Positions 3,775-44,977 of a stretch of 64,000 bases of DNA are shown here, one piece after another. The stretch is taken from positions 124,001 to 188,000 of the forward strand of contig JABURS010000035.1 in the NCBI GenBank assembly GCA_014762505.1, written 5' to 3'. Both the position numbers and the translations under genes were made by a program. The stretch is from Chromatiales bacterium (lineage in GTDB: Bacteria > Pseudomonadota > Gammaproteobacteria > SpSt-1174). Positions within the stretch are counted from its first letter, which is position 1. Every line of letters starts with the position of its first letter. The notes beneath the pieces are model-generated. The model ran no database searches and was not told where the DNA came from. It worked only from the letters and a program-made list of their open reading frames with translations.

Positions 3775-3855
3775 TGGCTGTCAGTCGTCCGTTGTCCGTT
3801 GGTGGAGACCTGATGCAGCCCCACTACGGACCACCGACCACGGACGACGGACGGG
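3775..3855. repeat. Inverted VACNGAC heptad array (alpha family) over the holA stop
   Basis: Two inverted arms of degenerate heptads. The left arm, about 3782-3804, reads as GTCCGTT-type units; the right arm, about 3824-3854, reads as ACGGACN-type units. In a common register the units are VACNGAC (AACGGAC, GACTGAC, CACCGAC, CACGGAC, GACGGAC). The spacer of about 15-20 nt holds no gene. The holA stop codon (3824-3826) and its last codons lie in the right arm, so the HolA C-terminus RPSSVVGGP is repeat-encoded. The same units recur at 28.8, 43.0 and 43.5 kb. Confidence 0.8.
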
Positions 3856-28654: not shown

Positions 28655-28820
28655 GGTAGGGAGGGCCGGGCCATTCAAGCGGGTATTGTCACAGAGGTCA
28701 CAGAATAAACGGGGTTTGCCTTCCCTCTGTGCGCTCTGTGTCCTCTGTGGCGAATAGACATTTCGCCTCACGCCTCACGTGTCCTCCCACGACGGACGAC
28801 GGACCACTGACAACGGACGG
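28641..28820. repeat. Three-family composite repeat locus between convergent genes
   Basis: Beta heptads GGGGTGA AGTGTGA GGTAGGG (28641-28661) cover the end of the hydrolase gene. Then a delta pair: left arm 28688-28705 (GTCACAGAGGTCACAGAA), a spacer of 19 nt, right arm 28725-28749 with three CTCTGTG units separated by CG and TC, and ending GGCG. Next come inverse beta heptads CGCCTCA CGCCTCA (28764-28777) and four alpha heptads GACGGAC GACGGAC CACTGAC AACGGAC (28791-28818). Layout and the junction TAGAC-N-TTTCGCCT match the 5.9-kb locus. Confidence 0.87.
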
Positions 28821-42104: not shown

Positions 42105-42977
42105 TCAGGCCTCGGGCTCGTCGCCGCCGTTGGCCCGCAGGCTGAGCTGCAGCAGATGGATGCGGCGATTGTCGGCGCGCAGCACCTTGAAGTCGAAGCG
42201 GTCGACCGTGATCTCCTCGCCGCGCTTGGGCACGTGGCCGAAGCGGTTCATCAGCAGGCCGCCGATGGTGTCGAACTCCTCGTCGCTGTACTCGGTGCCG
42301 AAGTATTCGTTGAATTCGTCGATCGGCGTCAGCGCCTTGACCGTATAGCGGTTGTCGGTGTGACGCAGGATGTCGTGGCCATCGTCGACGATGTCATGCT
42401 CGTCGTCGATCTCGCCGACGATCTGCTCGAGCACGTCCTCGATGGTCACCAGGCCCGACACGCCGCCGTACTCGTCCACCACGATGGCCATGTGGTTGTG
42501 GCTGTTGCGGAACTCGTTGAGCAGCACATTGAGACGCTTGCTCTCGGGGATGAAGACCGCCGGACGCAGGTAGTCCTGGATGTCGAAGTCCTCCTCGCGC
42601 TGCTCCGCCGCGTAGAAGCGCAGCAGGTCCTTGGCCAGCAGGATGCCCTCCACGTCATCGCGACTGTCGCCCACCACGGGGAACCGCGAATGGGCCGAGT
42701 CGATGATCACCGGCAGCATCTCCGCCACCCGCGCATCGTGCTCCACCACCACCATCTGCGAACGCGGGATCATGATGTCCCGTACCTGCATCTCCGAGAC
42801 CTGCAGCACGCCCTCGATCATGGCGAGCGCGTCCATGTCCAGCAGTTCCCGCTGCTGCGCCCCGCGTAGCAGTTCGATCAACTGCTCACGATCCCGGGGC
42901 TCCCCCAGCAGCACCTGGCTCAGGCGATCCAGCCAGCGCGACTGGGAGGAAGAGGTACTAGGTCGGTCTTCTTTCAT
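42105..42977 (-). CDS. corC: CorC/HlyC-type transporter accessory protein
   Basis: A 290-aa CorC (YbeX) protein: two CBS domains (about 60-185: MLDMDALAMIEGVLQVSEMQV, then VEGILLAKDLLRF) and a C-terminal CorC_HlyC domain (RYTVKALTPIDEFNEYFG). It is tied to magnesium and cobalt efflux. The start is the ATG at 42977 (MKEDRPSTSSSQSRWL); upstream in-frame codons are repeat-derived (QRTTDNGQRT) and should not be part of the protein. An alpha heptad array stands 8-41 bp upstream of the start, so no clear Shine-Dalgarno remains (only GGACAG). The gene lies between ybeY and lnt as usual, except for the inserted IVP gene. Confidence 0.93.
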   Translation of the reverse strand: MKEDRPSTSSSQSRWLDRLSQVLLGEPRDREQLIELLRGAQQRELLDMDALAMIEGVLQVSEMQVRDIMIPRSQMVVVEHDARVAEMLPVIIDSAHSRFPVVGDSRDDVEGILLAKDLLRFYAAEQREEDFDIQDYLRPAVFIPESKRLNVLLNEFRNSHNHMAIVVDEYGGVSGLVTIEDVLEQIVGEIDDEHDIVDDGHDILRHTDNRYTVKALTPIDEFNEYFGTEYSDEEFDTIGGLLMNRFGHVPKRGEEITVDRFDFKVLRADNRRIHLLQLSLRANGGDEPEA

Positions 42978-42984
42978 TTGAAAT

Positions 42985-43018
42985 GCTGTCCGTTGTCCGT
43001 TGTCAGTGGTCCGTTGTA
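42985..43018. repeat. Alpha heptad array, downstream arm of IVP cassette
   Basis: Heptads in plus orientation: GTCCGTT GTCCGTT GTCAGTG GTCCGTT GT. In the register of the gene strand they read AACGGAC CACTGAC AACGGAC AACGGAC. It lies between the IVP stop codon and the corC start. A 16-bp stretch of it (ACAACGGACCACTGAC on the minus strand) is an exact inverted match to the other arm upstream of the IVP gene. Confidence 0.9.
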
Positions 43019-43023
43019 AAAAC

Positions 43024-43407
43024 TCAGGCCCGTGGTGCATGGCCCGACGACTTTCCGATCGATTTTAGATAGGCATTCAGCCTTGGGCTAAATTCATCCA
43101 GCGTGACCCTGAGTCGGTCGATATCCTCGTCCGACAGCAGACCGCGCGTATATGCGCGGCGAAGCCAGTGCTGGACTTCCGTCAGAGACCCACGCGCGAT
43201 CCGTACGAACCGCCGGTTATCCTGATATGACCCGCGTGCATTACCTTCAGCAATATTCGCACCAATGCTGTCAGCTGCCCTGACGAGCTGTTTCCCGACC
43301 GTGTCCCGGGGGAACGGCTGCCATCTGGAGACGACCTCCCACACGGCATCGGCCAGGGTCTCGGCGAGTGCATAAACATGCAATTTCTGAAAATTCGGCT
43401 TCTGCAT
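43024..43407 (-). CDS. Four-helix-bundle protein of the 23S rRNA IVP / Avd-like family
   Basis: A 127-aa protein matching the four-helix-bundle family (TIGR02436-type). Helix 1: LHVYALAETLADAVWEVVSRW; then FPRDTVGKQLVRAADSIGANIAEGNARGS, the family hallmark (x-x-A-A-D-S-I-x-x-N-I-A-E-G); then RRFVRIARGSLTEVQHWLRRA and LDEFSPRLNAYLKSIGK. Members are encoded in 23S rRNA intervening sequences and, as Avd, assist reverse transcriptases in diversity-generating retroelements. Here the gene is in the ybeY-corC operon, co-directional, with a strong RBS (GGGAGG) and both sides flanked by inverted alpha heptad arrays. No reverse transcriptase is in the window. The function here is unknown. Confidence 0.9.
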   Translation of the reverse strand: MQKPNFQKLHVYALAETLADAVWEVVSRWQPFPRDTVGKQLVRAADSIGANIAEGNARGSYQDNRRFVRIARGSLTEVQHWLRRAYTRGLLSDEDIDRLRVTLDEFSPRLNAYLKSIGKSSGHAPRA

Positions 43408-43482
43408 ACAACCCTCCCTGGTCGAATGTCTCTCACCACCCGTCTCGAGCCATACCAGACCTCAGGGACCGGGAGTGTAACA

Positions 43483-43510
43483 ACTGACAACGGACCACTG
43501 ACGGCGTACG
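43483..43510. repeat. Alpha heptad array, upstream arm of IVP cassette
   Basis: Plus-strand heptads AACTGAC AACGGAC CACTGAC GGCGTAC spanning about 43482-43510. It is inverse to the array at 42985-43018, with 16 identical bases. It lies between the ybeY stop codon (43515-43517) and the leader of the IVP gene. Confidence 0.88.
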
Positions 43511-43514
43511 GTCT

Positions 43515-43973
43515 TTACGCATAAGGATCGGCAAAGCCTAAACCAGCCAGAATTTCCTTTTCAATCGTCTCCATCACCTCGGCCTCGACCTCGTCGATGT
43601 GGTCGTAGCCCTGCAGGTGCAGCAGGCCGTGCACCACCATGTGCGCCCAGTGGCCTGCCTCGCTCTTGCCCTGTTCGCGGGCCTCGGCCTGCACCACCGG
43701 GGTGCAGATGACGAGATCGCCCAGGTAGCCGCCGAGGTCCTCGGCAGGCAGGCCCGGCGGGGCCTCGAAAGGGAAGGAGAGCACGTTGGTGGGCCGGTCC
43801 TTGCCGCGGTAGTCACGGTTGAGCGTCTGGCTCTCGTCGGCCTCGACCAGGCGGATGACCACCTCGGCCTCGCCCTCGCCGCGCCAGGCGGCCTCGGCCC
43901 AGCGGGCGAGATCGGCATCGGCCGGGCGTGTGCCGGCAGCGGCGTCCTGCACCTCCACGGCGAGCCGGTTCAT
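43515..43973 (-). CDS. ybeY: rRNA maturation RNase YbeY
   Basis: A 152-aa zinc endoribonuclease used in 16S 3'-end processing and ribosome quality control. The family motif H-x3-H-x5-H is in [15 protein letters not shown] (near residue 115); [17 protein letters not shown] near 55 is the other hallmark. The start ATG at 43973 overlaps the stop of ybeZ (ATGA). It is followed by the IVP cassette instead of corC. Confidence 0.95.
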
Positions 43974-44977
43974 GCCTGGCCTTCGCCCTGCTCCGCGCGG
44001 TCGTAGGCCTGCACGATGCGCTGCACCAGCGGGTGTCGAACCACGTCGTGGGCGGTGAAGAAGCTGAAGCTCACGCCGTCCACGTCCTTCAGCACCTCGA
44101 TCACGTGGCGCAGGCCGGACTTCTGGTTGCGCGGCAGATCCACCTGGGTCACGTCGCCCGTGACCACGGCCGTGGAGCCGAAGCCGATGCGGGTGAGGAA
44201 CATCTTCATCTGCTCCACGGTGGTGTTCTGCGCCTCGTCCAGCAGGATGAAGGCGTCGTTCAGCGTGCGTCCGCGCATGTAGGCCAGCGGTGCGACCTCA
44301 ATGATGTTGCGCTCGATGAGCTTGGCCACCTTCTCGAAGCCCAGCATCTCATACAGCGCGTCGTACATGGGCCGCAGGTAGGGGTCGATCTTCTGCGCCA
44401 GGTCCCCAGGCAGGAAGCCCAGGCGCTCGCCGGCCTCCACCGCCGGACGCACCAGCACCAGGCGGCGCACCATGTCGCTCTCCAGGGCCTCCACGGCGGC
44501 GGCCACGGCCAGGTAGGTCTTGCCGGTACCGGCCGGGCCCACACCGAACACCAGGTCGTGCGACTGGATGGACTTGAGATAGCGTGCCTGGCTCGGCCCG
44601 CGCGCGCGGATGTTGCCGCGCTTGATGCGCAGGGTGAAGTCTTCCTTCGCCTCGGCCCGCTGCTCCAGCAGCTGCTCCACGCCGGATTCCTGCAGCCACA
44701 GGTGCACACTCTCGGGGGTGAGCTGCTCCTCGCGGGTCGCGCGGTACAGGTCGCGCAACAGTTCGCCCGCCGCCTGGGCCGGGCGGTGTTCGCCGATGAT
44801 GTTGAAGTGGTTCGCGCGATTGTTGATCTCCACCCCCAGCCGGCGCTCCAGCTGGCGCAGATGCTCGTCGAACTGGCCGCAGAGATTGGCCAGGCGCGCA
44901 TTGTCGGCGGGTTCGAGGGTCACGGCCACGGAACTCGGGTGGTCGTCGAGAACGGTTTCGGTCTGGATCTGAGCCAA
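43970..44977 (-). CDS. ybeZ: PhoH-like ATPase (YbeZ)
   Basis: A 335-aa PhoH-family P-loop protein. Walker A is [18 protein letters not shown] near residue 145, followed by [18 protein letters not shown] and the Walker B region [11 protein letters not shown] near 238. YbeZ binds YbeY and is thought to help in ribosome maturation. The N-terminal region (about 20-110) is more variable, with [19 protein letters not shown]. First gene of the ybeZ-ybeY unit, with a REP-like inverted repeat upstream towards miaB. Confidence 0.93.

Follow-up and report, generated by a model that had tools for sequence, protein, structure and literature searches.

The spacer between ybeY and corC in a 64,000-nucleotide stretch of a Chromatiales genome (GenBank assembly GCA_014762505.1, contig JABURS010000035.1, positions 124,001 to 188,000; hereafter the window) contains a unit of about 0.5 kb, which, judging from comparisons of sequence, is probably a mobile element of an undescribed class, made up of one gene of the IVP family between inverse heptad arrays that the IVP protein would recognise.

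Architecture of the ybeY-corC element

A preliminary description of this DNA had proposed a small gene with the family hallmark between ybeY and corC. Indeed, the 127-aa ORF, whose hallmark stretch is AADSIGANIAEG, belongs to the family by both profiles tested, scoring 96.3 bits on PF05635 (cut-off 33.8) and 91.8 on TIGR02436 (cut-off 24). The inverse heptad arrays on either side, with 16 exact bases in common, were likewise recovered (Table 1), and both arms follow the consensus GTC-N-GT-B. The IVP gene was also correctly described as co-directional with the operon, since ybeY, IVP and corC all lie on the minus strand, and as having its own likely ribosome-binding site. The genes around the element are leuS, DUF1451, lnt, corC, ybeY, phoH, miaB-like, ssb and MFS, and, as had been stated, no reverse transcriptase was found among them; the approximately 520 bp of the element itself leave no space for a second gene. 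A promoter scan detected no sigma-70-like promoter in 42900-43700, and no Rfam match was obtained for 42500-44000. When the window was searched for the two-heptad pattern with one mismatch tolerated, 14 matches were found against 0.26 expected from shuffling (at most two in 100 shuffles). Gene-less inverted arrays had been reported elsewhere in the window; one of the two loci is such an inverted pair, but the other is a single array.

Table 1. Features of the ybeY-corC element and related arrays in the window
Feature	Position	Strand	Remark
Complete element, IVP gene enclosed by inverse heptad arrays, ~0.5 kb	42985..43505	-	Same direction as the ybeY-corC operon
Array GTCCGTT-GTCCGTT-GTCAGTG-GTCCGTT-GT, GTCCGTTGTCCGTTGTCAGTGGTCCGTTGT	42988..43017	+	corC side; 3' end of the element when read along the gene
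Inverse array, GTCAGTG-GTCCGTT-GTCAGTT-GT on the - strand, ACAACTGACAACGGACCACTGAC	43480..43502	-	ybeY side; 5' end of the element when read along the gene
IVP gene, 127 aa, four-helix bundle	43024..43407	-	PF05635/TIGR02436; predicted basic, pI 10.1
GGGAGGG just before the IVP ATG	43412..43418	-	Likely ribosome-binding site, read from sequence
ybeY, host gene upstream	43515..43973	-	PF02130
corC, host gene downstream	42105..42978	-	Likely start MKEDRP at 42978, inferred from relatives
Gene-less inverted pair of the window heptad, loop ~30 nt	3780..3852	.	Candidate non-autonomous copy
Lone orphan array of the window heptad	28789..28818	-	Single array

We then compared the ybeY-corC site in relatives. 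In most of those in which both genes were located, ybeY and corC overlap or lie no more than about 85 bp apart, including a genome of the same family with a spacer of 51 bp, and a few have a longer spacer that still lacks the cassette. Relatives outside the genus are cassette-free, in agreement with the original view of the two genes as normally adjacent. Among the relatives examined, the element occupies this site only in the window genome (G000) and a congener (G001), in which the cassette (contig C74, L116/L231) is decayed: the gene is broken, its 3' half and the corC-proximal array are kept, and the ybeY-proximal part has been replaced by invading GGTAGGAGCG-type palindromic repeats. This distribution, together with the near-touching genes of the relatives, marks the cassette as a lineage-specific insertion, intact in the window genome and decayed in its congener. 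Because the nearest cassette-free relative belongs to another genus, the junction of the window copy was placed only approximately.

The two congeners were rejected as a clean empty-site pair for the window heptad, given the decayed ybeY-corC copy and the rearranged flanks at other arrays. The gene-less pair of the window and the inverted pair L228 of G001 have orthologous flanks and different sequence between their arms; synteny in G001 is broken nearby (L227/L228).

Period-7 arrays at IVP genes

The second IVP gene of the window genome (L002) lacks the window heptad and has inverse GAAGTTT arrays of its own, and the test was therefore widened from the window heptad to any heptad. To this end, 77 IVP loci from a class-wide sample and 80 named loci from many phyla were searched for period-7 arrays within 250 bp of the IVP gene, with no heptad sequence assumed, and stretches taken 1 kb from the loci served as controls. 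As a result, period 7 at a threshold of at least 17/21 was detected in 72/155 upstream and 69/149 downstream flanks versus 5/282 controls, whereas each of the other periods from 4 to 13 appeared only 0-2 times at IVP flanks at the same threshold, period 14 being a harmonic. At a threshold of at least 16/21, 112 of the 147 IVP loci carried an array on at least one side, compared with 4/122 controls and 0/29 ybeY ends. When loci with common flanks were collapsed and loci of the Xanthomonadaceae-like family added, arrays remained at 86 of 109 distinct sites, 59 of them on both sides, versus 3/88 controls; part of the IVP loci have no recognisable array. The proposed association of IVP homologues with heptad arrays thus stands, but the link is to a heptad and not to the window heptad. 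The heptad word differs among IVP types, even inside one genome, as with L002, which rules out one universal heptad.

The array-less loci were not explained by an rRNA location, as no rRNA was found in 20 loci (mostly picked as array-less) nor in L114. The latter was the copy examined from a 1.5-Mb genome (G325) in which eleven weak PF05635 matches were found, several of them equal-scoring and a few kb apart; it also has no period-7 array. A further group of IVP genes (L045, L065, L070, L073, L081, L082, L085, L087, L090-L093 and L101) shares one upstream gene through many genera, with arrays weak or absent in most members, and seems to be an old resident site with decaying arrays. A search for phage carriers of IVP elements gave no match. 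On two Calothrix brevissima plasmids (L225, L226), an S23/IVP gene lies beside a phage-type integrase in a block common to both, a setting unlike that of the array elements; these copies were discarded as proof of transposition, since the homology spans the integrase-linked gene block and extends beyond the element alone.

The two arrays of a locus proved to be inverse copies of one heptad. Read inversely, the arms of one locus agree in a mean of 5.56/7 bases, versus 3.76 in direct reading; when partners were swapped, the value fell to 3.72 and never exceeded 4.25 in 2000 swaps. A local inverse match between the arms was found at 79/148 loci versus 0/121 controls. The arrays mostly consist of 4-5 heptads, the detector being blind below 4, and the median element length from outer array edge to outer array edge is 478 bp. 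The window copy has the paired inverse arrays sharing one heptad that characterise the proposed class.

Insertion into operon spacers

In the Xanthomonadaceae-like family, IVP genes occur in 53/147 genomes, and the sampled elements occupy eight sites, among them, as named from flanking sequence, accB-accC, prfB-lysS, carA-carB, pilB-pilC and ahcY-metF. Two of these sites gave filled and empty states in the same genera. At carA-carB, the genes overlap by a TGATG stop/start in one genome (G392), and another genome of the same genus (G451) carries an element between them. At accB-accC, the empty spacers measure 10-12 bp (two genomes), whereas in the filled sites the arrays start 3-6 nt past the stop of accB and reach to, or nearly to, the start codon of accC. 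These empty sites show the arrays to be the ends of the inserted DNA, which upholds the earlier proposal that they bound the element. The comparisons of sequence thus showed that the array-gene-array is inserted as a unit into operon spacers that are empty at the orthologous position elsewhere, and they favour the original suggestion of a small mobile or RNA-level element. No target-site duplication, of the sort left by a DNA transposon or MITE, was obvious on informal inspection of the filled and empty sites, although an enzyme acting in trans may take part.

Gene-less inverted pairs were also found at the same kind of site (L353 and the pair in the window). One genome of the same genus as the accB-accC element carriers (G394) has at that site an inverted pair built from a different heptad, GGGCTGA, with no gene between its arms. 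An IVP element at ahcY-metF occurs in two families (L078, L320); in the former (G086), the heptad array encodes the MetF N-terminus MTTSPLTPYPSPTFSFEFF, and G209 has MSESRNFSFEFF.

Flanking genes were assigned by a simple rule on ORFs; on this basis, the IVP gene reads in the same direction as they do at 56 sites versus 5 (p 6e-12), which shows a strong preference for the sense orientation between co-transcribed host genes. The family is patchily distributed across phyla: the IVP tree requires 37 changes of phylum where 15 would do (76 labelled tips, 16 phyla). Within the Xanthomonadaceae-like family, one IVP lineage was found at one site through several genera, a pattern that vertical descent with losses would explain as readily as repeated insertion.

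Heptads, IVP types and orphan arrays

Heptad similarity is correlated with the identity of the IVP proteins (r=0.43, permutation maximum 0.15): it stays at background below approximately 45% identity and reaches 0.75-0.79 above 55%, across phyla. Since descent alone is not expected to keep non-coding words alike at such distance, we infer that the IVP protein reads its heptad word, although part of the co-variation could come from common descent. The commonest cross-phylum heptad type, TCAGC/T-N-N, has five informative and two nearly free positions; its loci were picked by resemblance to TCAGC, so that the freedom of the final two positions alone is an independent result.

Arrays of related words also occur away from IVP genes. 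In the class sample, IVP genes were present in 7/10 genomes with at least two matches to the window heptad and in 69/359 otherwise (p 9e-4). In the Xanthomonadaceae-like family, GGGAWTS arrays were detected genome-wide in 36/53 genomes with IVP versus 21/94 without (p 7e-8), the 21 thus having orphan arrays and no IVP gene. All 11 genomes whose sampled IVP has a GGGAWTS-type heptad carry such arrays, with 3-230 pattern matches, and they are richer in them than genomes whose IVP is of a different type (p 1e-4). By sequence, every IVP type goes with a heptad of its own, and the genomes that carry the type hold further arrays of that heptad. We infer that the gene-less pairs and single arrays are non-autonomous derivatives or remnants, which would have moved in trans.

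Heptads of this kind have been published as repeats. GGGAATC is known from Xanthomonas, where each genome has about 70 convergent pairs of it, and GGGGA(C/T)T is a Nostoc heptamer repeat (PMC4692102); the TAACTGA repeat occurs in Beggiatoaceae, cyanobacteria and Bacteroidetes, and its author suggested that an unidentified TAACTGA-binding protein might itself be the mobile element (PMC4679880). The published heptamers resemble the IVP-flanking arrays in unit length and intergenic placement; neither paper names a partner protein. GGGAATC arrays flank the IVP gene L110, whose nearest structure is XCC0516 (2GSC) of Xanthomonas campestris, and TCAGTTA, which flanks IVP genes such as L166, is the reverse complement of TAACTGA. 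In the Xanthomonadaceae-like family, genomes that have an IVP gene between GGGAATC arrays are also rich in orphan copies of these arrays. The IVP protein is the likely partner of this repeat, and known but unexplained seven-base repeats thereby gain a likely partner protein.

Protein structure and proposed mechanism

The AF2 model of the window IVP contains four helices (pLDDT 88) and best matches XCC0516 (2GSC; TM 0.80/0.87), followed by 2RLD. Avd of diversity-generating retroelements (DGRs) scores behind these two, at TM ~0.7/0.8, consistent with the earlier remark that it shares the fold. XCC0516 reportedly assembles from five bundles of four helices each (Lin et al. 2006, as cited in PMC10053308), and the window IVP is predicted to form a pentamer of the XCC0516/Avd type.

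We propose that the IVP ring would recognise the heptads, with about five read and two free bases in the best-sampled type, and would pair the two arrays, steering insertion into short operon spacers. Strand joining would be carried out by a host or trans enzyme, because the element encodes no enzyme. Transcription of IVP would be supplied by the host operon, from which the sense bias would follow. Spread by an RNA route, as for the 23S rRNA intervening sequences (IVSs), is a possible alternative.

Weighing the explanations

An element that acts at the RNA level, in which the arrays pair in the host mRNA, RNase III cuts the stem and the gene is excised, so that the stem is selected and spread perhaps proceeds via RNA, would account for the strong sense bias and for the folding prediction of the cassette RNA, in which the arms are paired (z -3.5), and it has a precedent in the excised IVP-encoding IVSs of 23S rRNA (PMC4990558). 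The order of heptad variants, however, agrees between the two arms at a level hardly above chance (z 0.27+-0.14), because of which binding sites for a protein fit better than a selected RNA stem, and the paired stem was rejected as a conserved feature and retained only within this rival. Moreover, the heptad consensus is kept with the protein across phyla, though any complementary sequence makes a stem, and the orphan single arrays, which match the resident IVP type, cannot form stems. We therefore regard an RNA-level element as unlikely. Recognition of the arrays by the protein at the DNA ends, the reading preferred here, also has to be set against a resident regulator or nucleoid protein, with the arrays autoregulating IVP, the orphan arrays forming its regulon and the patchy distribution arising from descent and loss. 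The basic IVP protein, the many orphan arrays in IVP genomes and the presence of one lineage per site through several genera all suit such a regulator, but it has no need of a matching downstream array, and the arrays lie inversely on both sides and coincide with the ends of inserted DNA. Gene-less inverted pairs at the same operon site, the coexistence in one genome of IVPs that differ in their heptads and a protein tree that disregards phylum also argue against it, and we consider it quite improbable.

It is scarcely credible that the arrays are simple sequence repeats grown by polymerase slippage with the gene as a passenger. Heptamers are the commonest 5-11-nt repeats in most genomes, for which slippage has been proposed (Mrazek et al., as reported in PMC4679880), and long perfect arrays are present at L079 and L067. 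Nevertheless, the period-7 arrays are concentrated around IVP genes, with no such enrichment 1 kb off, next to ybeY or around GxxExxY genes; the arms share one heptad in inverse orientation; and the heptad tracks the IVP protein, on which grounds slippage was discarded.

Beyond the window element, a wider scheme can be put forward tentatively, with less than even confidence: IVPs would be ring readers that take one heptad per subunit (about five read and two free bases), the array and its reader would constitute an enzyme-free mobile element present in most bacterial phyla and the source of genomic heptamer repeats, the 23S rRNA IVSs would be its rRNA branch, and a parallel class would be formed by a PD-(D/E)XK protein and words approximately nine bases long. 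If true, this would join three puzzles, namely the role of the IVP protein (the XCC0516 structure is reportedly from 2006), the origin of the heptamers abundant in Xanthomonas, Nostoc, Beggiatoaceae and numerous other bacteria, and the spread of IVSs. It would also define mobile elements with tandem-array ends and no catalytic enzyme, and the many natural protein/heptad pairs would offer a code to break, from which the reading of DNA or RNA by a small ring of helices could be learned.

Comparison with known systems

The closest known system by protein family is the 23S rRNA IVS, which in Coxiella burnetii has 428 nt, an S23/IVP ORF, terminal inverted repeats and excision by RNase III (PMC4990558). 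The window element is alike in the protein family, in size (428 nt vs ~480 bp) and in an IVP ORF between terminal inverted repeats, which are predicted to pair; both also lie, as putative selfish elements, in a conserved transcription unit with high expression. However, the IVS sits in 23S rRNA, whereas the window element sits in a protein-coding operon at ybeY-corC, and because of this location it does not, by sequence, classify as a 23S IVS. Set apart from IVSs by location, the elements described here have tandem heptad ends particular to each IVP type and related orphan arrays elsewhere. The rRNA IVSs may be one branch of the new class.

REP/BIME sequences with RAYT (TnpA-REP) provide another comparison: a gene lies between inverted copies of a short repeat, orphan copies also occur, and protein and repeat co-vary, RAYT being a catalytic HUH transposase and REPs being hairpins. 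The IVP element resembles such a REPtron in its flanking inverted repeats, orphan copies and protein/repeat co-variation, but its ends are tandem heptads and its sole gene, IVP, has no known catalytic domain, so that a Y1 HUH transposase gene is lacking. By analogy, it would work most like a REPtron without the transposase. Avd (PDB 4DWL, 8UB7) has the same fold and likewise serves a nucleic-acid element, as a pentameric accessory; a DGR, however, has a reverse transcriptase, and none lies among the neighbours of the window IVP. The window element is thus neither a DGR nor a REPtron. In the open-access literature, the IVP family and the rRNA IVSs are established, as are several heptamer repeats. 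We found no paper there that links them, and within that literature the link and the element class are new.

Arrays at GxxExxY genes

The GxxExxY genes, a small sporadic family, were taken as a negative control for period 7; this held, with 0/52 flanks, yet they turned out to have inverse arrays of their own and were dropped from that role. Genes of this family (PF13366 PDDEXK_3; the class-wide TIGR04256 loci L234-L262) lie between inverse arrays of approximately nine-base units, as in CCACAGAGGCACGGAGGCACAGAGG ... CCTCTGTGCACTCTGTGTCTCTGTGGTG, and inverse arms were detected at 16/22 loci versus 0/19 controls. They are thus like the IVP elements in having a single small gene, inverse short-tandem arrays and a location in operon spacers, but differ in the unit of about nine bases, the nuclease-superfamily protein and the lack of period 7. 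No GxxExxY gene was found in the window genome; its array loci L033, L034, L035 and L233 contain CTCTGTGTCCTCTGTGGC-type units, some as inverted pairs, beside heptad arrays. In G209, the ahcY-metF site and the L052 site (L265, L269) hold gene-less inverse GCCAAGGCG-type arrays of approximately nine-base units, and the same two sites in the congener G086 hold IVP elements with heptads. The heptad and nine-base repeat systems thus use the same operon spacers.
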